The notes under the pieces: generated by a model | Database searches by the model: none | Seen by the model: only the letters and a program-made list of their open reading frames with translations | Told to the model about the DNA's origin: nothing | Origin: a virus | IMG/VR virus record: IMGVR_UViG_3300007735_000465 | Span: 1 to 21,428 of that record | Length of the DNA stretch: 21,428 nucleotides | Strand: one strand, 5' to 3' | Translations under genes and position numbers: made by a program | Part shown: positions 975 to 16,114 of the stretch, one piece after another | How positions within the stretch are numbered: the first letter of the stretch is position 1 | Layout: every line of letters starts with the position of its first letter

Positions 975-2000
975 CTAATCTAAACTATTATCTAAAGCTT
1001 TTTCAGCATCATCACTACGTAAAATTCTTTCAATTTCTTTCATTTCATCTATTGCCCATTGTTTTTGTGAAGATGTTAATTCATCATTAACGGCGTTTTC
1101 AATAAATGGAAAAAATTCTTCGTCTGGTAGTTCATATAGCTTTCCAAAAAATAATTCACGAACACGTGCATCTTCTACATCGCTTTCATTATATATTTTA
1201 GAGATAGCATCATATAAAAATTTACCAAAACGTAGATCGTTTGGTTCGTTAGATAATTTATCTACAGCATTTACAACAGCTTGATTTTTTTCTCTATCAG
1301 GACCAAATCCTTTAGTACCAACAATCTCATACAATCCTTTTACAATCTCGTGTACAAGCATTGGGAAACATAATGCGCGAGCTTTAATAACGAATTGTTC
1401 ATTTTCTTCATCATATTCCATTTCACTTTCACCACCTTGTGGTGTTTGTCCTGATGCTAATGCCGCTAATAACATTGCAATAGCATTTTCATCATCATAG
1501 ATACCAAATGCTAATTTTAATATTTCATTGTATTTTTCTACTAAAGCTGGGTTGATAGAGTCTAAGTATTCTTTAAATAGCATAAATCCAAAAGCACCTC
1601 TAATTGAGGCACCTTGTGTTATACCATTAATAATACGACGTTTTGCTTGTAGTTTTTCAGGATCATCTTCACCAAATTCAGGTGTTGTTGGGTCTTGTGG
1701 AGGTGGTGGTTGTTGTAAACTAAAATCATCTCCTATTTTAGCGTCAATTCTAATATTAGCATAATCAATGATCGGATAAGCATCAGTCACCATTTGTGCT
1801 GCTACCATCTCTAATTCATCACGATATCCTTCTTCAGCATCAATAATTTCATCTAATAATGCTTTAGAACGTACCATTGTTTGCATCAATGACTTATTAC
1901 CAAGCATTGAGCGTAATGATTCGCCTGATTTACCTTTTAAGGAAGCCATTGTTTTGGGTGAGAATATTTTTTCGTATTCTACTTCTAATAAATTTGCCAT
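975..2000 (-). CDS. Conserved phage protein, possible head or virion component (341 aa)
   Basis: This acidic, mostly alpha-helical protein of 341 residues has a Pro-rich linker at about residues 95-112 (QQPPPPQDPTTPEF) separating an N-terminal helical domain from a larger C-terminal one. The section around residues 120-150 (KRRIINGITQGASIRGAFGF) and a KARALCFPMLVHEIVKGLY stretch look strongly conserved in type. I recall similar unnamed proteins in T4-like phages of aquatic bacteria but no function. The N-terminus MANLLEVEYEKIF has an L-L-E tripeptide at residues 4-6 but is too short to be a convincing capsid-targeting leader. The start overlaps the stop of the upstream gene (TAATG). A structural role is inferred from context only. 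Confidence 0.75.
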   Translation of the reverse strand: MANLLEVEYEKIFSPKTMASLKGKSGESLRSMLGNKSLMQTMVRSKALLDEIIDAEEGYRDELEMVAAQMVTDAYPIIDYANIRIDAKIGDDFSLQQPPPPQDPTTPEFGEDDPEKLQAKRRIINGITQGASIRGAFGFMLFKEYLDSINPALVEKYNEILKLAFGIYDDENAIAMLLAALASGQTPQGGESEMEYDEENEQFVIKARALCFPMLVHEIVKGLYEIVGTKGFGPDREKNQAVVNAVDKLSNEPNDLRFGKFLYDAISKIYNESDVEDARVRELFFGKLYELPDEEFFPFIENAVNDELTSSQKQWAIDEMKEIERILRSDDAEKALDNSLD

Positions 2001-2359
2001 TATTTTTGAGATCTAAAGCGTTTAATAATTTTAATTAAATCGTTAGCTTCCTTTACAGTTGCCTTTGTTCCAGCTTTTGCTGGCATCTTTTTAGGTATAG
2101 CATCTTTATCTTTTCCTGGGTTAAAACTTGGTTTTGCAGGTGGTTTTGTACCAGGATGTACTACTGGACCTGGTTTAGAAGGAGCATTTTCGTATAGTTC
2201 TAAATCTTCTATTGCCTTCATGTCTACAGGTTTACCTTGTTTTCCATCCTCATATCCTTTCATATATGCTGCTCGAGCTGGAGACATGTAAAGACCACCT
2301 TCATTTAATTCTTGTTTGATGATGCGGCTTATAGCTTCGCGTAATTCTTGTTTAGTCAT
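2000..2359 (-). CDS. Leader-bearing putative internal virion protein (119 aa)
   Basis: The first 20 residues form an amphipathic helix ending L18-N19-E20 followed by G21-G22, a close match to the (L/I)-x-E|(G/A/S) site cut by T4 gp21-type prohead proteases. After that comes a short motif (YMSPARAAYMKGYEDGKQGK), then a Pro/Lys-rich low-complexity stretch (about residues 58-95) and a basic C-terminal helix ending KRFRSQK. A small, basic, flexible body behind a cleavable leader fits a packaged DNA-associated internal protein (inference). There is no enzymatic motif. The start is preceded by a long A/T tract rather than a Shine-Dalgarno. Confidence 0.75.
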   Translation of the reverse strand: MTKQELREAISRIIKQELNEGGLYMSPARAAYMKGYEDGKQGKPVDMKAIEDLELYENAPSKPGPVVHPGTKPPAKPSFNPGKDKDAIPKKMPAKAGTKATVKEANDLIKIIKRFRSQK

Positions 2360-2377
2360 TTTATTATTTTTTATTTT

Positions 2378-3058
2378 TTATTTTGCCCACATCATATAGT
2401 TAGATTCTACTCTTCTAATATTTTCCGGTGTTGGATCTAGGTCCAGGATGCTTATTGGTTTAAATCCTTGTTTTAAAGCACCATCAATTCCTAATTTCCA
2501 TATTGCTATTGTATATAAACGATAAGCTTTAATTACAGTTTGAACTTTTTCAACATCTTTGTTTCTTCCTTCTTTATCGTATATTGATCTAACCCAAAAT
2601 GAAGGATTGACTATTTTATATTCTTCTAAGACTTTTTTACTAAATTCAATATTATCCATGTCTTTGCTACCAGAATATCCTTTAGATTCCATCCACTTAA
2701 CAAAATTATTCCATTGAGCCATTTGTTGAACAGATATCCCAGATTCATTAACTTTTTGTAATGCTTCATTACCTTCATAGCCAAGATTTGTTACTCTTCC
2801 GCTATTAAGATCTTTTAAAAAGGCTGTTGGGAATTGAAATTGTGATGTAAAGAAACCATTAATACCATCTACGTCAGTACCAGTACGAGTATCACTAACT
2901 GTTATAGCGGGTTTATCTGTTGGAATCTTAGATTGTGCTTTAGCTCCACCAAAAATACTAGAAGCAGCCATAGCTGCTCCCAATGCGATGTCTTTTGCAC
3001 CGACTTCTTCAAGTTGTTCTTGTTGGATTTGTTCTACAAGAGGCATTAGTTTAATCAT
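2378..3058 (-). CDS. Leader-bearing protein of unknown function (226 aa)
   Basis: The protein opens MIKLMPLVEQIQQEQLEE, a helix with possible cleavage positions after L-V-E (residue 9) or L-E-E (residue 18). A hydrophobic Ala/Gly stretch at about residues 24-40 (ALGAAMAASSIFGG) could be a membrane-active segment. The rest is soluble and mixed, with several Trp/Tyr-rich helices and a final ESNYMMWAK. No known domain is recognised. The start overlaps the FAD oxidoreductase stop (ATGA), and the bases just before it are ATATTTATT plus three, shared with other starts nearby. A packaged protein with a membrane-interacting segment is possible but unproven. Confidence 0.7.
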   Translation of the reverse strand: MIKLMPLVEQIQQEQLEEVGAKDIALGAAMAASSIFGGAKAQSKIPTDKPAITVSDTRTGTDVDGINGFFTSQFQFPTAFLKDLNSGRVTNLGYEGNEALQKVNESGISVQQMAQWNNFVKWMESKGYSGSKDMDNIEFSKKVLEEYKIVNPSFWVRSIYDKEGRNKDVEKVQTVIKAYRLYTIAIWKLGIDGALKQGFKPISILDLDPTPENIRRVESNYMMWAK

Positions 3059-4362
3059 GCCAATAAATATTCGGCAACATAAATTCCATGCGCCCCTGAT
3101 ACAGTAATACCACGAGCACTTAAGGCATCACCAACAAAATGTACGTTTGGATATTCAGTTAATGCTAGATTAGTATAATCTACTAATGGTTCTGGTGATA
3201 GATATTTTACTTCAGGAATATACATACCCCAATCATCGCCAAAATTGAATACTTTATTCATACCATCAATAAAATCATTAATATATTTAAAATATCCGCC
3301 GAATATTTCTTCAACTTTAGTTAAACCTATCCAACTAATTTTAGATGATGATACAGTTGTACCCTCAGATGTTAGTCCTGGTTCACGTGTCATATTAGGT
3401 GAGAAATATAATCCTGTATTATTAATCTGTAGTTTTTGTACTACATCTCTAGACCATTTAAATGGATCTTCAATACCTTTAATTTCCATCAATATACCAA
3501 AATTGGTCATATCGTTTCGGAATTGTTCACCCTTTTTCGCATGGCCGTTGTACGTGATATCGCCATAAGTTTCCTCCACGGCCACGTAAGCGGCATTGTT
3601 ATTAGTACAAAAGCTACGTAGAGAAACATTGTCAAACTTCTGATATAATTTGAAGTCATATGATATGTCTATTAATTTTTGAAAATATTTTTGTGGTGCT
3701 TCAAATCGAACACCTATTTGAACTGACTTAGGTTCAGTTGGTAGTTTATAATCGTCGGATAGTTTTTGTGCAAAGTCAATACCTGATTTACCTACTGCAA
3801 ATATAAGTTCATCATATATTATTTTGTCAGTAAAACCTTTATTTATTCTACACCATAAAGCGTTATATTTAAAGAATATATCAGTTACTTCAGCATTCCA
3901 TAAAAACTTAACACCCTTATCTAACAAATATTGGTACCATGCTTTAGCAATCTCGTGTAAGTAGTTACTACCAATGTGCCATACAGGAAACAAACGTAAT
4001 CCAAAATATGGTTTAATAAAGTCTGGTTCAGCTACTGGATCAGAACAGAATATTTCTTCTGGTTTAGGGTGAAAGCGTCTAAAGTTACTAATAACTTGAT
4101 CCATTAATTCCATTGCTTTTTCTTCACCACAATACTTAGCTAATTGACCACCAATTGCTGTATGGTATGTGAGTTTGCCATCGCTCCACCCTCCACTTCC
4201 TAACATGCCAGTCATAACTTCCTCTGGTTTACGATTATGAGGATCGTTTCCCTTATCGATTATTGTTATCAACTCGCCTGGGTATCCGTTATCGACAAGT
4301 TTAGTAGCAAAGTTAATACCTGCTACTCCCGCTCCAATTACTACAATTTTTTGTTGTTTCAT
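3055..4362 (-). CDS. FAD/NAD(P)-dependent oxidoreductase
   Basis: This full-length flavoprotein of 435 residues begins MKQQKIVVIGAGVAGINFAT. G10-A-G12-V-A-G15 is the Rossmann dinucleotide-binding GxGxxG. A central block (about residues 185-195, DELIFAVGKSG) resembles the second FAD/NAD motif, and the C-terminal NVHFVGDALSARGITVSGAHG is the typical final FAD-binding motif with an Asp contacting ribityl. The overall plan resembles uncharacterised FAD-dependent dehydrogenases of the COG2509 type. The substrate is unknown. Such a gene is unusual among phage structural genes and is probably an auxiliary metabolic gene (inference). A homing endonuclease gene lies immediately upstream, one base from its ATG. 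The next gene starts inside its stop codon. Confidence 0.85.
   Translation of the reverse strand: MKQQKIVVIGAGVAGINFATKLVDNGYPGELITIIDKGNDPHNRKPEEVMTGMLGSGGWSDGKLTYHTAIGGQLAKYCGEEKAMELMDQVISNFRRFHPKPEEIFCSDPVAEPDFIKPYFGLRLFPVWHIGSNYLHEIAKAWYQYLLDKGVKFLWNAEVTDIFFKYNALWCRINKGFTDKIIYDELIFAVGKSGIDFAQKLSDDYKLPTEPKSVQIGVRFEAPQKYFQKLIDISYDFKLYQKFDNVSLRSFCTNNNAAYVAVEETYGDITYNGHAKKGEQFRNDMTNFGILMEIKGIEDPFKWSRDVVQKLQINNTGLYFSPNMTREPGLTSEGTTVSSSKISWIGLTKVEEIFGGYFKYINDFIDGMNKVFNFGDDWGMYIPEVKYLSPEPLVDYTNLALTEYPNVHFVGDALSARGITVSGAHGIYVAEYLLA
3059..3070 (-). promoter_or_regulatory. ATATTTATT pre-start motif
   Basis: On the minus strand ATATTTATT (3070-3062) is followed by three bases and then the ATG at 3058. 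The same nine bases at the same spacing precede the starts at 5008 and 5395. Here it lies inside the end of the oxidoreductase gene (encoding EYLL), so coincidence is possible. Confidence 0.35.
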
Positions 4363-4363
4363 A

Positions 4364-5008
4364 TTATTTATATTTCCATTTAAAGTTAAATGCTGTTTTT
4401 TGCCTTCCCAAAATACAATCTTTAATCTGTGATGTTATATTACTTGTTTTGCCTGTTTGTTCTTTTATCCACTCTGCTGCTTGACCTTTACTTTCCCATT
4501 CTTTAATAAAATTATCATTTAAATCAAACATAAGCACAGGTGTTGCTTGCTTACGTTTAGCTATACCCATATTTTGTTTATGTTCATCTGAGAATGGTTT
4601 TGGGATATTTTTATTAGCCTTAGACATTTTTTGTCTTACATCCTCAGTGTAATATTGTGAGTGATTTCTTTGTTTTAGTGTTTTACTTATATGCATTCCT
4701 CTAGTAGGGTGATTTATAATTTTTTCTATTCGTTTAGGATTAATATTTTGTTTTTGATCTAATGTCCATTCTGTTGGACCTCCACCACCATCATTTTTAT
4801 TTTCTAACTTGAAACCCCATGCCTTAAATTGTTGTATCCAATATTGTTCCCAAAATTTCCATTGCTTATCTTCTACAATATCAATCACTTCTATTTTAAT
4901 ATCAGTACCAAAAGTTAAATAATGTTTATGTTGTCTTCTAACAGTATTTTTAGCTTTACCTACATAAAACGGTATTCCGTTTCTTTCTAAAATGTATATG
5001 TTTATCAT
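4364..5008 (-). CDS. GIY-YIG homing endonuclease with NUMOD repeats
   Basis: With the start at 5008 the product is 214 residues: MINIYILERNGIPFYVGKAK. Residues 4-17 hold the YIL...YVG form of the GIY-YIG nuclease core. The middle and C-terminus carry DNA-binding modules: an S-x-EH-K-type NUMOD3-like stretch (KPFSDEHKQNM) and a NUMOD1/IENR1-like FDLNDNFIKEWESKGQAAEWI, ending with FNFKWKYK. Freestanding enzymes of this kind cut a cognate site in related genomes and spread by gene conversion. The frame stays open further upstream to a possible ATG at 5080, but that would translate through a structured element. The M at 5008 directly precedes the nuclease core and has the ATATTTATT motif. The gene is wedged between the element and the FAD oxidoreductase start, as expected for an insertion. 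Confidence 0.88.
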   Translation of the reverse strand: MINIYILERNGIPFYVGKAKNTVRRQHKHYLTFGTDIKIEVIDIVEDKQWKFWEQYWIQQFKAWGFKLENKNDGGGGPTEWTLDQKQNINPKRIEKIINHPTRGMHISKTLKQRNHSQYYTEDVRQKMSKANKNIPKPFSDEHKQNMGIAKRKQATPVLMFDLNDNFIKEWESKGQAAEWIKEQTGKTSNITSQIKDCILGRQKTAFNFKWKYK

Positions 5009-5020
5009 GACAATAAATAT
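5009..5020 (-). promoter_or_regulatory. ATATTTATT pre-start motif
   Basis: ATATTTATT (5020-5012) stands three bases before the ATG at 5008. It supports this start over the longer reading frame and replaces a Shine-Dalgarno sequence. Confidence 0.4.
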
Positions 5021-5048
5021 ACGACTTTCCATCGGACCAACCACCAGA

Positions 5049-5128
5049 CAAAGAGAAAGCCCACCTTTTAGGTGGGCCACAGCTCCATAATTTTAACTTA
5101 GTCGATAAGGCTATGAATCCTATCTATA
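5049..5128 (-). promoter_or_regulatory. Structured element, copy 1
   Basis: This is an approximately 80-nt element nearly identical in layout to 5679-5757. One helix pairs 5059-5065 with 5071-5077 (GCCCACC/GGTGGGC). A second pairs 5104-5107 plus 5109-5110 with 5119-5124, around the invariant loop CTATGAAT (plus-strand reading). Invariant single-stranded blocks include ACAAAGAG, CACAGCT and TTAGTCGA. Helix bases differ between copies yet still pair. On the minus strand the element opens with TATAGATA (5128-5121), one mismatch from the T4 late-promoter box, and its GC-rich hairpin is followed by TTTCTCTTTG. It may be a 5' leader RNA, a terminator or a regulatory switch. No known family is recognised. 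Confidence 0.6.
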
Positions 5129-5155
5129 ATTTAATAATTTTTAAATTTATTTTCT

Positions 5156-5395
5156 TTATTCAAATTGTTTTAAAAAGTCCATTAAATTTTTTTTATCTTC
5201 ATCTTTTAATATACCTTGTACACCTTTATATGAATAAACAATTTTATTTAGTTTCTTATCTAAATAGAATCGTAAATCGCTTGGAGCATCTCCTCCAATA
5301 CTAACTCCCCTTCCCCACTCATAATCAAATGTAGATTCATTAATCACACCTGCTAATTCTTGCATTCTTTTAATTTCGTTGGATGACTGTTTCAT
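5156..5395 (-). CDS. Small leader-bearing protein (79 aa)
   Basis: Chosen start 5395 gives MKQSSNEIKRMQELAGVINE followed by STF. The segment ends I18-N19-E20|S21, an ideal gp21-type prohead protease site. RMQ-(x)-LAG-(I/V)-I is an N-terminal pattern I recall from many marine phage proteins. The remaining 59 residues form a small beta-rich domain (FYLDKKLNKIVYSYKGVQGI) with a short C-terminal helix (DEDKKNLMDFLKQF). An upstream in-frame start at 5425 would add ten residues before the leader, but 5395 is preferred because it has the ATATTTATT motif three bases upstream. The function of the mature domain is unknown. Confidence 0.7.
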   Translation of the reverse strand: MKQSSNEIKRMQELAGVINESTFDYEWGRGVSIGGDAPSDLRFYLDKKLNKIVYSYKGVQGILKDEDKKNLMDFLKQFE

Positions 5396-5407
5396 GATAA
5401 TAAATAT
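5396..5407 (-). promoter_or_regulatory. ATATTTATT pre-start motif
   Basis: ATATTTATT (5407-5399) is followed by ATC and the ATG at 5395, the same spacing as at 5008 and 3058. It was used to choose the start of the 79-residue gene. Confidence 0.4.
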
Positions 5408-5421
5408 GGGATAATTTTTAT

Positions 5422-5646
5422 TCACTTATAATTTTCTATTTCTTCTTTCATTTGTTCCCAGTATTTTTGTTTAGCTGTTCTACCATGTTCATTATTCCAT
5501 TCTTTTATTATCTTACTCACCGCTATTAAAGCACATTGTTTAGCAATCTCTCTATTACCTGTTATTTCCCAATATTCTTCTACTAATTTAGTTGCAGCGT
5601 TTATGCCCGCTACACCGGCGCCTACGATTACGATTTTCTTTTGCAT
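5422..5646 (-). CDS. Chimeric small ORF: FAD-oxidoreductase N-terminal stub fused to an unrelated tail
   Basis: With the start at 5646 the product is 74 residues. Residues 1-22 (MQKKIVIVGAGVAGINAATK...) match the first 23 residues of the FAD oxidoreductase at 4362 almost exactly in protein but clearly not in DNA, so this is not a fresh local copy. From about residue 24 the sequence changes to EYWEITGNREIAKQCALIAV and ends YWEQMKEEIENYK, a helical tail resembling small uncharacterised phage proteins. A GxGxxG loop alone cannot form a flavin domain, so the stub is probably a translation-start graft left by recombination. A longer frame to 5694 would read into the structured element and is disfavoured. 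Whether a protein is made is uncertain. Confidence 0.6.
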   Translation of the reverse strand: MQKKIVIVGAGVAGINAATKLVEEYWEITGNREIAKQCALIAVSKIIKEWNNEHGRTAKQKYWEQMKEEIENYK

Positions 5647-5658
5647 ATAATTAAATAT
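5647..5658 (-). promoter_or_regulatory. Variant pre-start motif (ATATTTAAT)
   Basis: ATATTTAAT (5658-5650) lies three bases before the ATG at 5646. It is one mismatch from the ATATTTATT found at the same spacing before 5008 and 5395. Confidence 0.3.
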
Positions 5659-5678
5659 AAAATTTTTATTTTGACCTA

Positions 5679-5757
5679 CAAAGAGAGAGCGCAATCTTTC
5701 GATTGCGCCACAGCTGCATAATATTGTTTATTAGTCGACAGGCTATGAATCTGTCTA
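5679..5757 (-). promoter_or_regulatory. Structured element, copy 2
   Basis: This copy matches the element at 5049-5128. The first helix pairs 5689-5696 with 5701-5708 (GCGCAATC/GATTGCGC); read on the minus strand its loop is GAAA, a GNRA tetraloop. The second pairs 5737-5741 with 5751-5755 (GACAG/CTGTC) around the conserved CTATGAAT. Compared with copy 1 at least four base pairs change on both sides, which argues for a selected RNA fold. The minus-strand beginning (5757-5755) coincides with the TAG stop of the 387-residue gene. The start of the FAD stub follows the hairpin by 42 bases. Its association with FAD-gene starts suggests a mobile or inherited 5' leader. Confidence 0.6.
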
Positions 5758-6918
5758 TATGTTATTATAATCTACTTCAGCACTACTACCTTTTAATTTA
5801 TTATCATCATATAATGCTCCTTTACTAAATACCCTAAATTCAATACCATATGCTTGTCCAATATGATTTGAGAAAGCAAATACTGGTTCATCATTAGTAC
5901 CTATTATATCATCTACATTAGTGTATATTGTACTACAGTTGATTGTTAATACATTATTATTAAATGTATAATTAGTAAAGCGTTCAAAATCTTCTTTAAC
6001 AACTATTGTTTTTGGATTATTTTCTTTACCAAATATTATACTATCATTATCTGCTTCAGGTATATTTGTTACTACTACTTTAGATAATATTTGATTAGTT
6101 GATGGGTTATATAGTTTGTATTTATTTTTAGCTCCTTGTATTGGTTGTAAACCTATATCTTTTAATTGTCCATTTAATGCTTTATTAATAAAATTTTTAA
6201 ATAAATCAGCAAATCTTGTTTTTGAACTTTCCCATCTTATTGCATTTTTCTTTTTAAGAGAGATATTAGCTGCTATTTTGTTATCATTATTAATTAATTG
6301 AGCATCTGCTTTAGCATATTCTGTTGCTTCTGTTTTAGAACTATCTACACATTCTATTATATTGTCAAACTGTAGATTTTTAGTAGCACTTTTTAGTATA
6401 ACTGTAATAGGATTAATAGTACCATCTTCATTTTTTGATATATGACTATTAATTAATGTAAAAAATGCGGATTCATTTATTTTACCTGATGATTCATTAC
6501 CTTGACCTTTTGCAAATTTAACGTATATTATTACTTTATTTTTAAACAATAAACGCCCTACAGATGAACCTTTACCAATAGATCCTTGATCAAACTGAAA
6601 GTCTGAATTTATTTTTTGCAAATCAGACATTAATTCTGTTCTAGAGAATTTAAATTTGTCTGGGATTAGAATAGAAAATGATGATTGACTTTTTGGTTTA
6701 AAGTTACTATCATCAAATTTATATTGATCTTTTATAAATTGAATAGCCTCATCAGCTAAAGGAGACATGTTAGCTTCGAAAAACATATCTAAATTATTAT
6801 TAGATTCTTTATCTAACATTTCACGTAAAATCATAACTTTATCTTCGTTATTCAAATCAACGATTCCATCGTGGCAAAGATATGACCACTCTAATAATAT
6901 TTTATCTATAACATTCAT
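5755..6918 (-). CDS. Leader-bearing conserved phage protein, possible nuclease-like fold (387 aa)
   Basis: The N-terminus MNVIDKILLEWSYLCHDGIV gives a potential cleavage site L8-L9-E10, and the stretch up to residue 35 (DLNNEDKVMILREML) is a helical module that I recall at the front of other aquatic phage proteins. The main domain includes GSSVGRLLF (119-125), YVKFAKGQGNESSGKINES (132-150) with a second I-N-E|S site at 147-150, and KADAQL...NISLKKKNAIRWE (203-230). The last could be the D...(x)-x-K core of a PD-(D/E)XK nuclease, with D205 and K222/K223 as candidates, but this is a weak guess. Codon use is very AT-rich. It ends in TAG inside the structured element. Confidence 0.7.
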   Translation of the reverse strand: MNVIDKILLEWSYLCHDGIVDLNNEDKVMILREMLDKESNNNLDMFFEANMSPLADEAIQFIKDQYKFDDSNFKPKSQSSFSILIPDKFKFSRTELMSDLQKINSDFQFDQGSIGKGSSVGRLLFKNKVIIYVKFAKGQGNESSGKINESAFFTLINSHISKNEDGTINPITVILKSATKNLQFDNIIECVDSSKTEATEYAKADAQLINNDNKIAANISLKKKNAIRWESSKTRFADLFKNFINKALNGQLKDIGLQPIQGAKNKYKLYNPSTNQILSKVVVTNIPEADNDSIIFGKENNPKTIVVKEDFERFTNYTFNNNVLTINCSTIYTNVDDIIGTNDEPVFAFSNHIGQAYGIEFRVFSKGALYDDNKLKGSSAEVDYNNI

Positions 6919-6919
6919 A

Positions 6920-7465
6920 TTATGCTTCTGCTGGTGGAGTTTCTTCTTCTGCTGGGGGAGGTGTTTCTGCTCCTGCTTCAGGTGCTGTAGTTTCAGGACC
7001 TGCTGCTGCTAAATCAGGACCTAATTCAGCTCCTGATGCTGCTGGAGATTCTGATGGTGGTGTTTCGGCTCCACCTTCTGCTCCTTCTTTAGGTGCGTAA
7101 TTTAATTCTAATAAATCAGCTATGCCTTGTGAAGCACGTTCTAATTCACCTATATTAATTGGATTGTATCTTCTACCTGCTACTTTAACTTGAAAATTAC
7201 CTTTACCAAGATATTTAATACTAAAGTCTTGACCATTAGTTAGATCAACTTTAAATGTAGTTGGTTTAGGAGCAACAATATTAATACCATTAACGTAACG
7301 ACCAAAAGCTGGAGACATTAAGTCTTCCATTAATTTTTTTAGTCCAGGGAAGCGATATACCATATACATCGCCTTCTCTGCTTTTCGCTGTTGTTCTTCT
7401 TGCTCTTTAAGAGCTTTTTTAACAGCTACCTTAATGTATTTTTCTAATATTAGTTGTTTATTCAT
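6920..7465 (-). CDS. Conserved phage protein with Pro/Ala/Glu-rich tail (181 aa)
   Basis: The N-terminal helix MNKQLILEKYIKVAVKKALK ends A-L-K-E at residue 21, a possible prohead protease site. Residues 34-125 form a compact beta domain with a striking conserved look (MYRFPGLKKLMEDLMSPAFG-like opening, then KPTTFKVDL, KYLGKGNFQVKVAGRRY, NIGELERASQGIADLLEL). The last 55 residues are a Pro, Ala, Glu, Gly and Thr tail that should be disordered and acidic. I recall the core as a widespread unnamed family in marine T4-like phages. The leader, a small folded core and a disordered tail are consistent with a head-internal or head-associated protein. Its start overlaps the stop of the next upstream gene. 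Confidence 0.75.
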   Translation of the reverse strand: MNKQLILEKYIKVAVKKALKEQEEQQRKAEKAMYMVYRFPGLKKLMEDLMSPAFGRYVNGINIVAPKPTTFKVDLTNGQDFSIKYLGKGNFQVKVAGRRYNPINIGELERASQGIADLLELNYAPKEGAEGGAETPPSESPAASGAELGPDLAAAGPETTAPEAGAETPPPAEEETPPAEA

Positions 7466-7790
7466 TATCGTTTAGTTCGTGGAAGCCTTGAGCCGCTTGA
7501 TCAATATAGTTTTCTGCATTTGTAATATGGTCTTGAATCCAACCTGGTATATCACGTTCCATGTTACCTAATTTGCTCATTAGTTGTGATGATGATCTAA
7601 TTATTGATTTTAAACTAGCTTGAGCCATTGCTACTTCGTGATCATCACCTTCTTTGATATTTTTAGCTATTGCTTTACGACGATTAGCAAGATAGTCATC
7701 TGTTTTATCTACCTTACCATCATTGTTAATATCCTCATCTTCTTTTCCTACTGGGTCTAGTTTTTCTAATATATCAATTAACTTTATCAT
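7458..7790 (-). CDS. Leader-bearing protein with EF-hand-like calcium loop (110 aa)
   Basis: The start is MIKLIDILEK, with I-L-E at residues 7-9 as a possible cleavage site. Residues 19-31 (DEDINNDGKVDKTDD) contain a D-x-N-x-D-G-x-V-D-x-x-D loop, the dockerin/EF-hand calcium-binding pattern, followed by YLANRRKAIAKNIK. The second half is a long helical region (SIIRSSSQLMSKLGNMERDI, then PGWIQDHITNAENYIDQAAQ) typical of small helical-bundle phage proteins. Calcium binding is inferred from the loop only. Neighbours are a Dps-like protein gene upstream, overlapping its start, and the 181-residue gene downstream. Confidence 0.75.
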   Translation of the reverse strand: MIKLIDILEKLDPVGKEDEDINNDGKVDKTDDYLANRRKAIAKNIKEGDDHEVAMAQASLKSIIRSSSQLMSKLGNMERDIPGWIQDHITNAENYIDQAAQGFHELNDNE

Positions 7791-8167
7791 TTTAAAAAGC
7801 GTAATTTATAGATTGTAGATTTGATTAACTCAACAATTGTATCAATTTGATTTTGAAGATATGAATCTTGACAAATCATTCCTCTGCTTTTATCAACATA
7901 AGTACAAAGTGTTTCAAAAAACATAATTATTGCTTCACAGCTCTGGTATTCTTGTAATGCAATATTACCATATCCAGTAATAACACCATATTTTCCTTGG
8001 TATGATTCTACAAATCCATCTACTAAAGGTATAATACCTTCATAATATAATTGTAGAGCTGTGTGAGCAGCAAATGAAGGTGTCTGGAGATGGAATATAT
8101 GAGCTTGTGTGCGTGAAGCCATCAATGTTGATACGAATTGTCCTACGAGTGGGTTATTGTGTTCCAT
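7787..8167 (-). CDS. DUF5856-type, ferritin/Dps-like four-helix protein
   Basis: This 126-residue all-helical protein carries no leader. The segment ASRTQAHIFHLQTPSFAAHT (about residues 17-36) with its H-x2-H-x-QT-x-SFA-H spacing, then YYEGIIPLVDGFVESYQGKYG (42-62), is what I know from phage DUF5856 proteins, which resemble starvation-inducible DNA-binding (Dps) ferritin-like folds. Known Dps proteins bind DNA and oxidise iron. Whether the His and Glu residues here form a ferroxidase site is not clear. It could protect DNA or serve as a host-modifying factor. The stop overlaps the start of the next gene (ATGA). Confidence 0.75.
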   Translation of the reverse strand: MEHNNPLVGQFVSTLMASRTQAHIFHLQTPSFAAHTALQLYYEGIIPLVDGFVESYQGKYGVITGYGNIALQEYQSCEAIIMFFETLCTYVDKSRGMICQDSYLQNQIDTIVELIKSTIYKLRFLK

Positions 8168-8169
8168 TA

Positions 8170-8730
8170 TTATTTCTTTTTAGTAGCTAATTTAGTAGCT
8201 GTTGCGTACATTTTACTTTTTTCTTCTTTAGATTTACCAAAACTACCTGATTTTTTCATACCTTTTACGATATCTTCTTTTTTATCTTTTTGAGCAGATG
8301 TCATTTTTTTCTTTTCATCTACCATTTTCTTTTGTCCACCTTCAGGAACAAGACCCATCATTTCTTTGATTTTATTTTTCTCATCAGAAATTTTAGTTTC
8401 TAGTTCTTTAATCTTTTCTTCAATTTCTTTTTCTAAATCAGCACCACGTTCTTTAATAGCCTCTAATTCTTTAGCAAAATTAGCTAAATCAGCAAATTCA
8501 ACCTCAGTTGATGCTGTTTTTTCAGCAAATTTAGCAGCTTGTAATTCATCACGATATTGCTTAAGAGCAGCTAATTCTTTTTTAAGATCAACTAATTTGC
8601 CAGAGCTTTTTGGAGCTTTTTCTTCTTTTTTAATAGATTTTTTAGGCTCTTTTTCTACTTTTTTTTCTTTAGTTTCTTTTGCTTCGTTTATTAAACTGCG
8701 CACAAATAGGCGTAATGCGAATTGATTCAT
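8170..8730 (-). CDS. Lys/Glu-rich coiled-coil internal protein with leader (186 aa)
   Basis: The protein begins MNQFALRLFVRSLINE followed by AKE; I14-N15-E16|A17 is a close match to the T4 prohead protease consensus. The mature part is extremely charged. Residues 17-45 are a K/E/P run, about 46-125 are a heptad-like coiled coil (LKKELAALKQYRDEL, LEKEIEEKIKELETKI), and the C-terminus is Lys-rich with KMYATATKLATKKK. This composition resembles T4 core or internal head proteins such as the scaffold and IP proteins (comparison by composition only). It has no enzymatic motif. The upstream leader contains an ATATTTATA box 18 bases before the ATG. Confidence 0.75.
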   Translation of the reverse strand: MNQFALRLFVRSLINEAKETKEKKVEKEPKKSIKKEEKAPKSSGKLVDLKKELAALKQYRDELQAAKFAEKTASTEVEFADLANFAKELEAIKERGADLEKEIEEKIKELETKISDEKNKIKEMMGLVPEGGQKKMVDEKKKMTSAQKDKKEDIVKGMKKSGSFGKSKEEKSKMYATATKLATKKK

Positions 8731-8755
8731 TTTTTTATGTTTATATGTATAAATA

Positions 8756-11416
8756 TTATTGATTTTTGGTTTCGGCTATGTGTTTTCTTAACATTTCTTT
8801 TACTTCATCCAAATGTTGTGGATTATTAGCAATATATTCACGTATCATATAGTTACGTACTTCAGCTAATCCACGACGTTGTAATACTGATAATAGTTCA
8901 GATGGTGAATTTAATGGTACCATTACATTACCGTTCTCATTATCTAGTAACACGTAATTTCTATTACCTGGTTGGATATTAATAGATGCTATTATGCGTT
9001 GATTTGCTAATCTAATGAAATATATTTTACTTTCATTTACTCCTATTACTCGACCTACTCTACCAGCATTACCTAATTGATTATTACGACGTGCTGCGCC
9101 TCTATCACCATTTGGATTAATACGAACAGCTGTTGTTGAATTAAGACGTCTATAATCATTTATTGGGAGACGGGAAAATGCTATTTCTAAACCGGTTTCA
9201 TCCATTACTTCAGCTACATTTATATCACCACCTCCTGCTGCAAGAGCTGCTGCACGTGGTTGTCCACCACCTGCTGGCCTACCTCTTCTAGTTGCACCTG
9301 CTACTGGAGCTTGTGCTCCTGGAGCTGTAGGTGTAGCTTCATCTGGTGTAGCGCCTGTTAATTGACGAGCCATAGCAGAAGGTATATTTGCTTTAACCAA
9401 TTTACCTGAATCTGATAATTTAAGAGATTCACGTGGATTAGCTTTATTTACAACATAATATATACCATTTGCTCCTATAGCTATTGCATATCTATCTGTT
9501 GGAGATAATGGTGGTTGAGCTCTAAACCATGCTTTTTTATTATCAAGACTAGTGTATGATGATCTAAACCATTGTGCTAGTCTACTTCCATCATAAACTA
9601 TATTTTCATTTCTTAAATAGGTAAAATAAGCTCTCCATGCTCCTTCATCCATTTGATTATTAGAATCTCTTTCTCTCCAATCATTTCCTCTCCATCCATA
9701 ATCTAATCCAGTATAAAAATTATATAATTCATTAGGAATACCACTTCCCATTTGTCTTGAAAAGAAAGTACGACTACTTTCTCCATCAGGTATAAGAAGT
9801 ACTTGTTGTCCCCCTAAATTACCAGAAGTTATTACTCTTTGGTTATATGGAGTAGATTTTAAAATAGATATAAATGCATCTTTATCAACTGTTGGTGGTA
9901 TATTAGAATAAGAATCAGCTGAGTTTTTAACTATGTTAACAACACCTTGTTGGAATGATGTATTGTCTTTTTCATCTTTTAATACTGCTTGTACTTCTTC
10001 ATCATTAAATGGTACTTTAGTTATCTTACCATCTTGAATTTTATATGATGAGAATGAATTAGCATCAACTAATATTTCACCATCTTCTACTTTTTTAACT
10101 ATAATAGCTGAATTTTCTTCTGATTTAGCTGTTTCAATAACTTTATCAATAAATGCTTTATCTACAATACCGTCAGTAGCTAATTTAAGTAAACTATTAA
10201 ATGGTAATTTATCTAATTCAGGATAATCAAGTAAGTATTTTGATGTACGTTGATTTAATTTAATATTTGGGTAGTCATCTTCTGCTGTATATAAACCTAT
10301 AGATATTTCATCTCCAAATTTTAATCTAACAATAGTATTACCATCTTTAGTAACATATAGTCTTTCATTAGATGGTATATTCCACTTATTTAATATTACT
10401 AATAATTTTTTAACATCAAATGGGAAAGTATCTAATGTAAGATATTTTAAATCAATTGGTTGCTGTATATTAGCTGTAATTGATTTTCTATCTTGATTAC
10501 TAAATTTATCTAGATTAGATAATAGGTAAGCATTGTCAATGATACCAGGAGTAATAGCAATAAATTCTGCTATTTGTGGATATTGAGGTAAATATTTTTC
10601 AACAAATTCTTTATTAGTAATATCACTAAATAAAGTTTTGTCTTTTCTAACAACCAAATATTGTTTTTTAACATTAAATGGCAATTTAATCCATTCTCTA
10701 ACACTAATAGTATCTTTTTTATATTTTTGAGCTACTTTTTCTTGATTAGATAATGGAATATAACGTAATATACCTCTAATATTTGGTATATCATTTAACC
10801 AAGGTACTTCAGATATTAATTTACTGAAAGACATTGGAGATGATTCGTATGGACTATTCTGTCTATTAGTATAGACATACTTTTTATTTTCATCATCTAC
10901 ATCCCTAACTTGTATAGCAACAAAACTTAATTTATCACTATCTGATAAGTTAGAGTTTTTAGCTAAATAAAATGTTGGATAACCTTTAGCAGCATCATAG
11001 CGATAATTACCAAATGATCCTCTAGTAATACACCATTTTTCACCTCTACCATATGTAATACAGTTATTTTCTTTAGAACCATTCCATACTGTAATGCCAC
11101 CATCTTGATATACTACATCGGGTGTTTGATCTTCTTCATCATCTGGGGCTTCAGCACCTACTGATGATGTAACTAGTTTTATTAGTTTAGATAAAGAGTA
11201 TTTACGTAAATCTTTTTCTTGTATTTTAGGAGAATTTTTGATAGCATCAAAACGTTGAATGTATGTTTTTAATGTATCATCACTGATATTGATATTTAAA
11301 TCATCAGCTTCTTCTCTAAATTGAGCCATTAAACGCTTTAATTCACCCTCAGAATATTCATTCAAAGGGAAAATATTATGTACTACGTGTAATATGAATT
11401 TATCTATTGCTCTCAT
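8756..11416 (-). CDS. Giant leader-bearing protein with KWCI domain (886 aa)
   Basis: This is the largest gene here. Residues 1-20 (MRAIDKFILHVVHNIFPLNE) form an amphipathic leader ending L-N-E. A domain near residues 100-175 has an N-N-C-I-T-Y-G-x-G-E-K-W-C-I core (KWCI at 127-130), then YRYDAAKGYPTFYLA. A similar W-C-x...FY pattern recurs in many large-phage proteins of unknown role. Residues 200-680 hold repetitive hydrophobic/polar segments with several roughly 60-residue units resembling each other. A Pro/Ala/Gly/Arg linker spans about 687-731, and a final beta domain plus a helical tail (HLDEVKEMLRKHI) follow. A packaged virion protein is inferred. No catalytic centre is seen. Confidence 0.75.
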   Translation of the reverse strand: MRAIDKFILHVVHNIFPLNEYSEGELKRLMAQFREEADDLNINISDDTLKTYIQRFDAIKNSPKIQEKDLRKYSLSKLIKLVTSSVGAEAPDDEEDQTPDVVYQDGGITVWNGSKENNCITYGRGEKWCITRGSFGNYRYDAAKGYPTFYLAKNSNLSDSDKLSFVAIQVRDVDDENKKYVYTNRQNSPYESSPMSFSKLISEVPWLNDIPNIRGILRYIPLSNQEKVAQKYKKDTISVREWIKLPFNVKKQYLVVRKDKTLFSDITNKEFVEKYLPQYPQIAEFIAITPGIIDNAYLLSNLDKFSNQDRKSITANIQQPIDLKYLTLDTFPFDVKKLLVILNKWNIPSNERLYVTKDGNTIVRLKFGDEISIGLYTAEDDYPNIKLNQRTSKYLLDYPELDKLPFNSLLKLATDGIVDKAFIDKVIETAKSEENSAIIVKKVEDGEILVDANSFSSYKIQDGKITKVPFNDEEVQAVLKDEKDNTSFQQGVVNIVKNSADSYSNIPPTVDKDAFISILKSTPYNQRVITSGNLGGQQVLLIPDGESSRTFFSRQMGSGIPNELYNFYTGLDYGWRGNDWRERDSNNQMDEGAWRAYFTYLRNENIVYDGSRLAQWFRSSYTSLDNKKAWFRAQPPLSPTDRYAIAIGANGIYYVVNKANPRESLKLSDSGKLVKANIPSAMARQLTGATPDEATPTAPGAQAPVAGATRRGRPAGGGQPRAAALAAGGGDINVAEVMDETGLEIAFSRLPINDYRRLNSTTAVRINPNGDRGAARRNNQLGNAGRVGRVIGVNESKIYFIRLANQRIIASINIQPGNRNYVLLDNENGNVMVPLNSPSELLSVLQRRGLAEVRNYMIREYIANNPQHLDEVKEMLRKHIAETKNQ

Positions 11417-12066
11417 TGTATTGGAGGTAAATTTAGTGCTTTTAATCTAGTAGACCATACATTTAAAATGTCTTGTCTATCTTTTTTATTTAATTTTACT
11501 TTATTAAAGTAATCGTTAATTACATCTTTAAATGGTGTACGTGTTTTTTTAGCTTTTAAATACATACCTTGTAACATAGCATCCACCTCTTTTTCTAATT
11601 TAAAGTAATCAGCTTTTGGTGCTAACTTCATGTTAATTAGATTACGCAATATTTCATCGTCACTCATTTCTTTAGAGGGAATAACATTTATACCTTGCTG
11701 TGTAAAATGTTCTAATTCATGTCTAATAACATCAGTTAAATCAAAATATATATCTTCCCATTTTTGTGGTAAATCTCTTGGATCAACCTGAAATCTGATT
11801 TCAAGGTATGGAGGGTCTGCTAATTGATCAACTCCACCATCTACAATATATCTTTGTGATTTTGTTGCTTTAACTCTTAATACTGCATTTAAATCAAATT
11901 CAAATGAACGACCTTTAGCATCAGTTAATTCATAATCATTTTCAAATTCTAAATCACCTTGCTCGTCCATATATTGATCTTTCCATTCTCTCATGATGTC
12001 AGTGACTATGTTTCTAGTCATAGAATCATAAGCACCTTCTTTCAATATATCGATTAATTTAATCAT
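11413..12066 (-). CDS. Leader-bearing HExxH zinc metalloprotease-like protein (217 aa)
   Basis: The first ten residues MIKLIDILKE, followed by GA, are a model capsid-targeting leader with L-K-E|G. Residues 113-124 (VIRHELEHFTQQ) contain H116-E117-x-x-H120, the zinc and general-base motif of gluzincin/metzincin peptidases. A downstream E160 in KLEKEVDAMLQG is a plausible third ligand. The N-terminal half is beta-rich. The likely activity is peptide hydrolysis, with the target unknown. It could act in head maturation or be injected to cut a host protein (inference). Start and stop both overlap neighbours (ATGA), placing it in one tightly coupled unit. Confidence 0.78.
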   Translation of the reverse strand: MIKLIDILKEGAYDSMTRNIVTDIMREWKDQYMDEQGDLEFENDYELTDAKGRSFEFDLNAVLRVKATKSQRYIVDGGVDQLADPPYLEIRFQVDPRDLPQKWEDIYFDLTDVIRHELEHFTQQGINVIPSKEMSDDEILRNLINMKLAPKADYFKLEKEVDAMLQGMYLKAKKTRTPFKDVINDYFNKVKLNKKDRQDILNVWSTRLKALNLPPIQ

Positions 12067-12956
12067 TTAGTTTTACCCCATTTTTTACCTTTACCTGGTT
12101 GTTTACATGCTGACACTGTTGGGCGACATGAAGGGTATTTTGCGCGTTTTTCACCTTTTTGGCGGCCACAAGGTTTACATTTAGTTTTACCATCTACTTC
12201 GCGACATGTATTACAATCTACCCAACCACCTGTTTTACCAGGAGCGCCTTTACGAGCAAACCATGTACGTAATGTTTCTTTTTGTTTTTCAGTTAATATT
12301 TCGTTTAACCAAGGAGCATTTAAACCAATATATACATTTGGTTGAATAAAACCTTCAGGATACATTTTAAATGTTTGAGTAGTTCTATGCCAACCTTCTC
12401 CTAATTCGTATTTACCATCTTTAGTTTTAAATAAAATAATTGGTTCTTTGGATATACCTTGACTTTTTAATAAATTTTGTTGTGTTTTATGTCTTTCAAC
12501 ATCCTTACCTACATCTTGTCTAATTTCACCTCCAATTCTTGATTTTAATTCTTTTTGAGTTTTATCACTAAAAATATCCATTGTTATAGGAAAATTTATC
12601 TTAGTCTCCCATTTTAAATCTTTAAGTTGGGTATCAATCCAATCCTGGATGCCTTCAGCTGTATTAATATTATCATCTTTTTTAATCATCTTATAAATCC
12701 AATCCTTTATAACATAATCAGGAAAATTTGGAAGTTGTTGTTTTAAATAACCAAGAAGACCTTGTCTTAATTCATTTAATTCAAACAGATTTTCTTCTTC
12801 CTTTAATCCTTTCCATATTTTACCTTTACGGCAACGTACAATAGCACCTGATTTATAGGCAGATGGTTTGTCGTATTTGCGATCAGCAATACGCTTACAA
12901 CGGTCTGCTTTTTTCTCAAGCATCATTTCAAATAATATATCTTGTAAACGTATCAT
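12063..12956 (-). CDS. Multidomain leader protein: basic cassette, ParB-like core, DUF5872-like Cys tail (297 aa)
   Basis: Leader MIRLQDILFE, with L-F-E at residues 8-10. A basic cassette follows at about residues 18-52 (DRCKRIADRKYDKPSAYKSG, then RCRKGKIWKG), which I recall as a repeated module in marine phage proteins. L60-N61-E62 is a second possible cleavage site. The core contains ILFKTKDGKYELGEGWHRT (174-192), resembling the G-G-x-H-R box of ParB/Srx-like nucleotide-binding folds. Residues 244-297 are a Cys-rich basic tail (GGWVDCNTCREVDGK, CKPCGRQKGEKRAKYP, CRPTVSACKQPGKG), matching what I know as DUF5872. Nucleic-acid binding and packaging are inferred. Confidence 0.75.
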   Translation of the reverse strand: MIRLQDILFEMMLEKKADRCKRIADRKYDKPSAYKSGAIVRCRKGKIWKGLKEEENLFELNELRQGLLGYLKQQLPNFPDYVIKDWIYKMIKKDDNINTAEGIQDWIDTQLKDLKWETKINFPITMDIFSDKTQKELKSRIGGEIRQDVGKDVERHKTQQNLLKSQGISKEPIILFKTKDGKYELGEGWHRTTQTFKMYPEGFIQPNVYIGLNAPWLNEILTEKQKETLRTWFARKGAPGKTGGWVDCNTCREVDGKTKCKPCGRQKGEKRAKYPSCRPTVSACKQPGKGKKWGKTK

Positions 12957-13234
12957 TGGAATAAATTAGCTACTGTTAAATTAATAATAAGGGCTATAAA
13001 GAATATAATCCAAACTTGATTGATTTGTGGCTTAACTCCATCCTCATCAAAGTTACCAATGTGATAAGGACGTGTTTTAAAATTAGAAAATCCCATAGTC
13101 AATCCAGCTCCAATAAAGGCAAATAGGTATGCTAGTGCTGCGTACCACATTTGATGGTCTTGGTCTACAAATAGGATTGGAAACGGTACTCCAAGTATGA
13201 ATGGTAGTCCTAATATTCTTTTTAATGCTTTCAT
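12953..13234 (-). CDS. Small membrane protein, three transmembrane segments (93 aa)
   Basis: Start 13234 gives MKALKRILGLPFILGVPFPI. This M was preferred to the in-frame M at 13288 because it overlaps the upstream stop as ATGA, the junction type used throughout the window. Hydrophobic stretches at about residues 7-22, 30-50 (AALAYLFAFIGAGLTMGF) and 72-92 (VWIIFFIALIINLTVANLF) predict three membrane helices, joined by a hydrophilic stretch with FKTRPYHIGNFDEDG. Two adjacent small membrane proteins in a phage suggest a role in lysis or envelope modification, such as a holin pair, but nothing in the sequence proves it. Confidence 0.65.
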   Translation of the reverse strand: MKALKRILGLPFILGVPFPILFVDQDHQMWYAALAYLFAFIGAGLTMGFSNFKTRPYHIGNFDEDGVKPQINQVWIIFFIALIINLTVANLFQ

Positions 13235-13458
13235 AAATGTGTTATTAAGACAGGTATTGCTCCTGCTACGGTGTATAAAAAATCCCAAATATCTGCTCCA
13301 CCTTTTCTTTTTTTTTCATCGTATACTTCCTTAGCTGCTCCTATTACTATAACTGGTATCAGAGCAAGTAGTGGTGATAATAGAAATAGAGATAGACAGT
13401 AAATTACTGTCCCTGCTATAAAATGGTTTGCTTTATCGGCTGCTATTAATATTTTCAT
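13231..13458 (-). CDS. Small membrane protein, YfiM/DUF2279-like (75 aa)
   Basis: This short protein begins MKILIAADKANHFIAGTVIY. The D-K-x-x-H-F-x-x-G start, two hydrophobic helices (about residues 14-40 and 60-74) and the intervening GAAKEVYDEKKRKGGADIWDF resemble the YfiM/DUF2279 membrane proteins known from bacteria and many phages, whose function is unknown to me. The DKxxHF and KExYD residues are the family-like positions. It overlaps the next membrane protein gene by ATGA. A lysis-related role is possible from context. Confidence 0.7.
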   Translation of the reverse strand: MKILIAADKANHFIAGTVIYCLSLFLLSPLLALIPVIVIGAAKEVYDEKKRKGGADIWDFLYTVAGAIPVLITHL

Positions 13459-13468
13459 TTTTTATAAT

Positions 13469-14152
13469 TTACCATGCTCTGCAAGACCAATAATTTGCTT
13501 TCCAACGTGGTCCTGGGTTATCACAGTTATGTCTTTTACGATATGCTGCTCTTCTTTTTGGATTTTTTACTTTAATATGCATACGTTTACCTTTAGCTGA
13601 TTTGCCACCAAATCCAAAGTTAACTTTTACAACTTTACCTTTGTTATTTTTAACGTATACTTTAAATTTTTTGATATCACCTTGCATTGGTTTACCTAAT
13701 TGTACCTTACGACCACGATATTCAGCTTCATATACACAAGGACATTCTGCTTCAGCTAAGAATGAATTATATTCATTCATAAATGTAATAAAATCTTTTA
13801 TTTCTTCAGGATTATTTTCATCAACATCATATTCGTCTATTTCTTCTTCTTTCATTGGCTTATTTTTCCAATCAGACATATTTCCAAGAGGACCTTCTTC
13901 GCTATCTGAGTTATGTGGTTCATTTTCACCAATGAAGAAAGCTTCATCCATTCCTACTTCATCTTTTAATTCTTGAAATTCTTCAATTGATGCATCTAAT
14001 ACATAATCTTTTAAATCTTCAAATGAAGGAAATTGTAAAAAAGGATATTGCTGTTTTTCAGCATATGATAAAAATTCAGGAACACCTACTGATTTAGCAC
14101 TTAGTTCACTAATTGCTTCCTTAATAATTTCTTTTAATTTATTTAGTTTCAT
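13469..14152 (-). CDS. Leader-bearing protein with conserved basic Cys/Trp C-terminal module (227 aa)
   Basis: Leader MKLNKLKEIIKE, with I10-K11-E12|A13, a good prohead protease site. Residues 30-130 are acidic and helical. The last 65 residues are basic: VYVKNNKGKVVKVNFGFGGK, then KNPKRRAAYRKRHNCDNPGP and KANYWSCRAW at the very end. I recall this RRxxYRxRHNCDNPGPxxKAxYWSCxxW ending from many marine T4-like cyanophage and pelagiphage proteins, without a known function. Two Cys plus His/Trp could bind metal. The acidic region and basic module separated by a flexible stretch fit a DNA-associated internal head protein. The start overlaps the upstream gene end. Confidence 0.75.
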   Translation of the reverse strand: MKLNKLKEIIKEAISELSAKSVGVPEFLSYAEKQQYPFLQFPSFEDLKDYVLDASIEEFQELKDEVGMDEAFFIGENEPHNSDSEEGPLGNMSDWKNKPMKEEEIDEYDVDENNPEEIKDFITFMNEYNSFLAEAECPCVYEAEYRGRKVQLGKPMQGDIKKFKVYVKNNKGKVVKVNFGFGGKSAKGKRMHIKVKNPKRRAAYRKRHNCDNPGPRWKANYWSCRAW

Positions 14153-14399
14153 CTTCTTGTTTTTTAGGTTCGAACCAATTTGAGCACCATTTTGATGGAT
14201 CTTTTATTTGATTACCTTCGTTATCAACTAATTCATCAGTACCCATGTATTCTTGATATTGTTTGTTTCGACACATATGCTTATCATCTTTCATGTAGTA
14301 ATAATTACAAACGTGACAACCAAAGCCTATTGGAGAAAACATGTAAGGAGGATATTCTTCCCCCTCTTTATGCTCTATTAAATCTAATAATCGTATCAT
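14139..14399 (-). CDS. Leader-bearing four-cysteine protein, possible metal or Fe-S binder (86 aa)
   Basis: Start 14399 yields MIRLLDLIEH (L-I-E at 7-9); it was chosen over the in-frame M at 14408 because it produces the leader shared with other genes here. Cysteines 28, 31, 43 and 72 follow a C-x2-C-x11-C-x28-C pattern, with FGCHVCNYYY at the front and DPSKWCSNWFEPK at the end. The spacing is loosely like high-potential iron-sulfur proteins or a zinc knuckle, but the match is not exact. The protein is 86 residues and soluble. The ligand and function are unknown. Confidence 0.7.
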   Translation of the reverse strand: MIRLLDLIEHKEGEEYPPYMFSPIGFGCHVCNYYYMKDDKHMCRNKQYQEYMGTDELVDNEGNQIKDPSKWCSNWFEPKKQEDETK

Positions 14400-14411
14400 G
14401 TTAAACATATG

Positions 14412-15017: not shown

Positions 15018-15050
15018 CGTGTATTTTTAGATAAATGTTACCTATAAATA

Positions 15051-16099: not shown

Positions 16100-16114
16100 A
16101 ACTTATATTTTATT

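Follow-up and report, generated by a model that had tools for sequence, protein, structure and literature searches.

A compact RNA element that occurs twice in the viral DNA analysed here belongs to a family, represented in IMG/VR by 154 elements with about 140 distinct cores, that precedes a gene for an FAD-binding oxidoreductase (hereafter the FAD gene). What can be read directly from the letters is the family itself, its pseudoknot, the association with this gene, an overlap between the pseudoknot and a terminator stem, and a promoter motif downstream. Taken together, these features probably define a new phage cis-regulatory RNA family, a pseudoknot-regulated intrinsic terminator that would govern read-through into the FAD operon; we infer both the role of the pseudoknot as the antiterminator state and the existence of something that controls it.

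Two copies of the element in the window

The window comprises positions 1-21,428 of the IMG/VR virus record IMGVR_UViG_3300007735_000465, and the RNA strand of both copies is the minus strand, here also the coding strand. A preliminary description of this DNA had placed two copies at 5049-5128 and 5679-5757, with shared single-stranded blocks and helices that differ in sequence yet keep pairing, and a re-reading of the sequence agrees with it on each of these points. The window contains two occurrences of the two-block pattern SCCACAGCTNCATAATNTT (at most 3 mismatches), where 0.14 are expected. Both copies fold into a hairpin, P1, with a loop that base-pairs to a strand further downstream and so gives an H-type pseudoknot, and in both a GC-rich hairpin with a U-rich tail stands directly 3′ of the pseudoknot strand.

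P1 of copy 2 (5737-5755) consists of GACAG (5755-5751), the loop AUUCAUAGC (5750-5742) and CUGUC (5741-5737). Covariation places its pseudoknot (5709-5747) between CAUAGC (5747-5742) in the P1 loop and GCUGUG (5714-5709), which are joined by an A-rich linker, L3, of 22 nt (5736-5715). The terminator-like hairpin GCGCAAUC-GAAA-GAUUGCGC (5708-5689), which is apparent from both sequence and covariation and has the GAAA loop noted earlier on the minus strand, is followed by the U-rich tail UCUCUCUUUGU (5688-5678), the whole spanning 5678-5708; its overlap with the pseudoknot strand is 1 nt only. Motif enrichment further identifies a promoter-like sequence at 5652-5682, made up of TTTG (5682-5679), a 19-nt spacer and TATATTTA (5659-5652).

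In copy 1, P1 (5104-5124) was described earlier as GATA..GG/CCTATC; the helix is real, but its form is a 6-bp stem of GAUAGG (5124-5119) and CUUAUC (5109-5104) with one G-U pair, closed by the same loop AUUCAUAGC (5118-5110). The pseudoknot (5078-5115; sequence and covariation) pairs CAUAGC (5115-5110) with GCUGUG (5083-5078) across an L3 of 20 nt (5103-5084), and the hairpin GCCCACC-UAAAA-GGUGGGC (5077-5059) carries the tail UUUCUCUUUGU (5058-5048), together occupying 5048-5077 on the minus strand like all the features above. The covariance model described below, which includes copy 1 itself, matches this copy with E 1.9e-20. The preliminary description had seen both hairpins, but overlooked the CAUAGC/GCUGUG pseudoknot, the terminator-like character of the second hairpin with its U-rich tail, and the promoter motif between copy 2 and the FAD start. 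A short ORF across the 3′ half of the element (AUGCAGCUGUGGCGCACCUAA) was rejected, as the reading frame is not conserved.

The gene context is as first described from the ORF list. Copy 2 is followed by an FAD-gene stub (MQKKIVIVGAGVAGINAATKLV..., then an unrelated tail; 5422-5646, minus strand), whose start is the same as that of the intact FAD genes of L002, L006 and L007. Copy 1 is followed by a GIY-YIG-like homing endonuclease of 214 aa, assigned from its relatives (MINIYILERNGIPFYVGK...; 4364-5008, minus strand), and then by the complete FAD gene of 435 aa (3055-4362, minus strand), the gene that travels with the element. Its product scores above the cut-off for Pyr_redox_2 and has no PDB sequence match; the AlphaFold model (pLDDT 89) finds its best fold match in 3nlc (VP0956), with Z 33.3 over 381 residues against 20.4 for the next, and 3nlc is, judging by its title, uncharacterised too. 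On the evidence of the modelled fold and an FAD-binding N-terminus, the protein is a COG2509-type flavoprotein.

Relatives of the endonuclease also lie between element and FAD gene in L065, L115, L214, L237, L242, L243, L063, L236, L201 and L004, the last of which matches the phrog_314 homing endonuclease. The family sits at the 5′ side of the FAD gene and sometimes at the 3′ side (window 3055-5646; L004, L065, L115, L237). Beside the endonuclease, in the window and in L004, the FAD gene has an altered 5′ coding sequence (KIVVIGAGVAGINF), and the window's upstream stub retains the common one (KIVIVGAGVAGINA), as would be expected if the endonuclease cuts the FAD start of phages that lack it. 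L108 presents a second case like the window: at 1447-2964 it carries two different elements, one heading a Pyr_excise-like gene and the other heading FAD, with a GIY-YIG-type endonuclease ORF between them.

Distribution of the family among phages

An exact pattern derived from the two window copies retrieved six more elements from IMG/VR, and a looser pattern retrieved L009, in which P1 is changed to GACUG/CAGUC. A covariance model was built from nine sequences on P1 and the 3′ hairpin, with the pseudoknot left out, and was run on 80 loci recruited solely via the FAD protein; the element was present upstream of the FAD gene in 70 of them. Of the ten remaining loci, five have no more than 534 nt of upstream sequence, too short to tell, and four of these five begin in or just past the expected element site. 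The covariance-model search that the preliminary description proposed thus finds further homologs with covariation in IMG/VR. In a separate scan that used the RNA pattern alone and no gene information, all true elements with enough downstream sequence precede the same FAD gene; the exceptions are two chance matches in other sequence (L195, L212) and three contigs that end too early (L179, L203, L231). This rules out the random placement with respect to genes that had been raised as a counter-possibility.

The distance from element to FAD start is 50-65 nt in most genomes, though one or more genes, up to about 1.7 kb, sometimes lie between, and the FAD homologs behind the elements fall to 40% identity. 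Of 17 genome records, which range up to 183 kb, all but one carry a single convincing copy, located at the FAD locus, and the remaining record lacks the element; a match at 77.5 kb in G006 was rejected as an ordinary terminator. The window and L108 are the only contigs with two elements. The proteins encoded upstream fall into 41 BLAST clusters, the largest of which (56) is possibly chained. Since the downstream FAD gene is constant and the upstream genes vary, the element is tied to what follows it, as the preliminary description had supposed. The phage genomes are related, so that sequence counts do not equal independent events, and the pattern-based sets fix some loop bases; nevertheless, about 140 distinct cores with extensive covariation rule out chance.

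Outside these viruses, 85,000 bacterial and archaeal genomes scanned with a pattern yielded, at the sensitivity of that pattern, four matches, all without the structure and attributable to chance. The element is also absent from Flavobacterium phage immuto and from Campylobacter phage NCTC12673, the latter of which encodes a homolog of the FAD protein. The large uncultured viruses that carry the element probably infect Bacteroidota; a related contig encodes a terminase with 60% identity to its counterpart in Flavobacterium phage immuto, among the closest isolates. Consistent with the earlier statement that the element matches no recognised family, Rfam gave no match at the gathering score for the window and nine diverged loci, and only irrelevant weak matches for both window copies at E up to 5. 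We found no published description of the element in the literature covered, which omits most subscription journals. The 5′ flank ACATWYAGA showed no enrichment at other genes.

Several further features of these phages were observed alongside the element. In L161 (G003; 7396-13388), genes for FolE, QueD, a QueE-like protein and QueC stand together with a weakly DpdA-like gene, and each of the nine records of 127 kb or more that were searched has QueC; judging from this gene content, these phages probably carry 7-deazaguanine in their DNA. A link between the element and 7-deazaguanine (preQ0/preQ1) was considered and rejected as not specific, since FAD gene and QueC occur separately: NCTC12673 encodes the FAD homolog but no QueC, and immuto encodes QueC but lacks the FAD gene. 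In the window (2000-18854, minus strand), many genes share similar short N-termini ending in (L/I)xE before A or G (MIKLIDILKEGA, MIKLLDLLLEASA, MNLGEYLANIILEAG, MTKQELREAISRIIKQELNEGG), which resemble T4 capsid-targeting sequences with a prohead protease site; these genes possibly encode a large set of packaged internal proteins.

Pseudoknot, terminator and promoter motif

The pairing was assessed in an alignment of 61 distinct, model-derived rows, in the selection of which the pseudoknot played no part. Standard pairs fill 98.6% of pair cells, and two-sided changes occur at 15 of 18 pairs, three of them in the pseudoknot, which bears out the earlier proposal that the RNA is structured and its helices covary. 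The alignment scores 0.400 for covariation, compared with 0.123 after shuffling and at most 0.041 when the partner is slid by 1-3 columns. P1 is paired in 99.7% of cells and shows two-sided changes at each of its 5 pairs; the pseudoknot is paired in 98.3% of cells, and its 25 two-sided cells compare with 7.4 in shuffles (0 of 500 as high) and 0-4 when slid. A larger collection contains about 26 different paired versions of P1 and the pseudoknot types CAUAGC/GCUGUG, CAUUGC/GUAGUG, CAUUAC/GUAGUG and UAUAGC/GCUGUA, plus two with a single change; as this collection was filtered for P1 and pseudoknot pairing, the tests on the 61-row alignment are the fair ones. The near-invariant unpaired bases are an A before P1, AUU in the loop, a G after P1 and an A before the pseudoknot strand, of which the AUU and the last A were set in the search patterns. 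A small linker hairpin, such as CUC-GUAA-GAG, is present in 37 of 140 elements.

Nearly all 154 elements have the second hairpin and a U-rich run, and in 85 of them at least 6 of the 9 nt after the stem are U, as in intrinsic terminators; hairpin energies range from about -10 to -27 kcal/mol, a few degenerate elements aside. The best terminator stem overlaps the 6-nt pseudoknot strand by at least 3 nt in 111 of the 154 elements, and by all 6 nt in 21, L180 and L206 among them. The arms of the terminator covary with the pseudoknot variants: L256 has the pseudoknot strand GUAGUG and the terminator arm GCCACUACUCC, and L074 has GCUGUA and GGUUACAG, while the L180 stem, GGAGCUGUGGC...GCCACAGCUCU, runs directly into UUUUU. 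In many relatives one strand is thus, to judge by these alignments, conserved for two incompatible helices, and as the 3′ strand of the pseudoknot also forms the base of the terminator, the two folds would be mutually exclusive. For the marine L180, L206 and L074, the predicted fold is a strong terminator plus P1 (z -6.2, -4.5 and -4.2). The predicted stability of the terminator fold far exceeds that of P1 alone, and any control would therefore need to act kinetically.

In the explanation that we favour, polymerase arriving from the co-directional upstream gene would make P1, then the strand that closes the pseudoknot, and then the hairpin with its U-rich tail; the pseudoknot could form once its 3′ strand emerges. 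Where nothing holds the pseudoknot, the stabler full terminator stem would retake part or all of the strand, and transcription would stop before FAD (the OFF state). Where something, presumably a ligand or protein, keeps the pseudoknot in place, the base of the terminator would stay open and polymerase would read on (the ON state). Candidate holders are a metabolite, the FAD protein, a host protein or the ribosome on the upstream gene. The first of these would make the element a ligand-binding riboswitch, a reading that we offer only tentatively; it would then be a new riboswitch class restricted to large T4-like Bacteroidota phages, its pseudoknot binding a metabolite that the FAD enzyme makes or uses and switching transcription of the operon during infection.

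Two observations on the terminator count against the favoured explanation, namely the far stabler terminator fold predicted above and an overlap of merely 1-2 nt in 38 of the 154 elements. The window's clade is among the latter. There the pseudoknot and the hairpin stay compatible and the U tract is weak, with only 5 U among the 9 nt after the stem in the window copies, so that the switch may be weakened; by these measures, the window's own copies are predicted to be the weakest terminators.

A third point against it comes from the promoter motif. The sequence TT[TG]G-N17-21-TAnnTT[AT][AG] lies within 75 nt downstream of the pseudoknot strand in 121 of 154 elements, compared with 29 of 2903 control windows (1.0%), and upstream of the element in 4 of 150, near background. 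In two large phage records, a closely similar motif precedes 22 of 340 genes, whereas none of 340 windows of equal size inside genes contains it; we take the motif to resemble the Bacteroidota -33/-7 promoter. The FAD gene thus probably has its own promoter. As the motif lies between the hairpin and the FAD start, its transcripts would exclude the element, which is probably transcribed only from the co-directional upstream gene. A pseudoknot-regulated terminator would then add to or protect FAD expression without supplying all of it, and a switch that is dispensable for part of that expression is unusual for a riboswitch. A separate 8-mer, ATATTTAT, is found in the 50 nt preceding 46 of 295 genes and in no window of that size inside genes (G001 and G003 records; L146-L163), and perhaps represents a second (late) promoter class in these T4-like phages.

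A terminator followed by a promoter is also what a transcription-unit boundary would look like, and the element could be an unregulated terminator that ends the upstream mRNA and insulates the FAD promoter, with a pseudoknot that stabilises the 3′ end or becomes a 3′-UTR-derived small RNA. The compatibility of pseudoknot and hairpin in the window's clade fits this account, as do the FAD loci L073, L079 and L104, which lack the element and have at the same site, upstream of the FAD unit, a plain terminator (e.g. GGCCUCCUAGGAGGCC-AUUUUU). These plain terminators also suggest that termination is the base function, to which the pseudoknot adds control. What an unregulated terminator leaves unexplained is that the pseudoknot tracks FAD and not the varied upstream genes, that it occurs as a single copy among many such boundaries, and that it shares a strand with the terminator stem; we consider it unlikely.

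In 44 of 141 cases, 9 nt separate the upstream stop codon from P1; as a rule the two are no more than about 20 nt apart, and in some elements the stop codon falls within P1, as it would if a ribosome finishing the upstream gene covered P1 and decided between pseudoknot and terminator. However, the distance varies (mostly between -34 and +11), phage genes are normally packed tightly and such translation-coupled attenuation has no need of invariant loop bases, which makes it improbable. We regard as very improbable that the element acts within the FAD mRNA, either as a conventional 5′-leader riboswitch or as a translational operator like that of T4 gene 32. Its usual position 50-65 nt before the FAD start, and the A/U-rich stretch that runs up to the start codon in the window, would suit such a role, but the promoter motif intervenes, as may up to about 1.7 kb of other genes. 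Of the roles first suggested for the element, an RNA leader acting as riboswitch, attenuator or processing signal, attenuator is the best reading, and a leader of the oxidoreductase mRNA is not supported in that form.

A self-cleaving ribozyme or RNA processing site is less credible still: the topology is like that of the pistol ribozyme, a hairpin loop of which pairs just 5′ of a second hairpin, but inspection revealed neither an enclosing P2 nor the conserved cleavage junction 3′ of P3, only a U tract of variable sequence, and Rfam gave no pistol match. Strongly disfavoured is an end of a mobile element belonging to the homing endonuclease, which is found at this locus in many contigs and in both of those with two elements, because most elements have no endonuclease nearby, genomes carry one copy, which also speaks against the transposon end considered earlier, and the RNA covariation is clear.

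Relation to known RNAs and significance

Compact H-type pseudoknots with few conserved loop bases, often coupled to terminators, are known from the preQ1-I, -II and -III riboswitches. The phage element has the same combination of compact pseudoknot and terminator, but its conserved sequence is different, the FAD gene does not track preQ0 genes, and none of the three families matched at the gathering score or, for both window copies, at E up to 5. The T4 gene 32 leader is likewise an mRNA pseudoknot upstream of a gene in T4-like phages; the present element differs in its fusion to a terminator, in its position upstream of a promoter and in the gene that it precedes, which encodes a flavoprotein, not a single-strand-binding protein.

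The closest parallel in logic is the proven HMP-PP (thiS motif) riboswitch, in which the ON state is a small hairpin with a possible pseudoknot, the hairpin that follows forms the tip of an intrinsic terminator whose base is mutually exclusive with the aptamer, and the association with particular genes is near-exclusive (PMC6478431). The phage element would share the competition of pseudoknot and terminator, and it has the near-exclusive gene association too. It differs in sequence and genes, in its larger P1-pseudoknot upstream of the terminator, in the promoter after the terminator and in being phage-only. HMP-PP gave no Rfam 15 match at the gathering score, its inclusion in that release being assumed, and no thiamin genes were seen at the element's locus.

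The kind of device, a pseudoknot or aptamer that competes with a terminator, is therefore already known; what is new, as far as sequence comparison can tell, is the family, along with its restriction to phages and its placement upstream of a promoter. To our knowledge, few cis-regulatory RNA families are confined to lytic phages. The element has an unusually clean address, with one copy per genome at one gene whose homologs diverge to 40% identity. Should it prove to be a riboswitch, its ligand would show what the orphan COG2509 flavoprotein family, which also occurs in Campylobacter phages, uses as substrate or makes as product. If it is instead a terminator controlled by a protein or a ribosome, it would provide a compact natural competition between pseudoknot and terminator, with about 140 variants for the study of folding kinetics.
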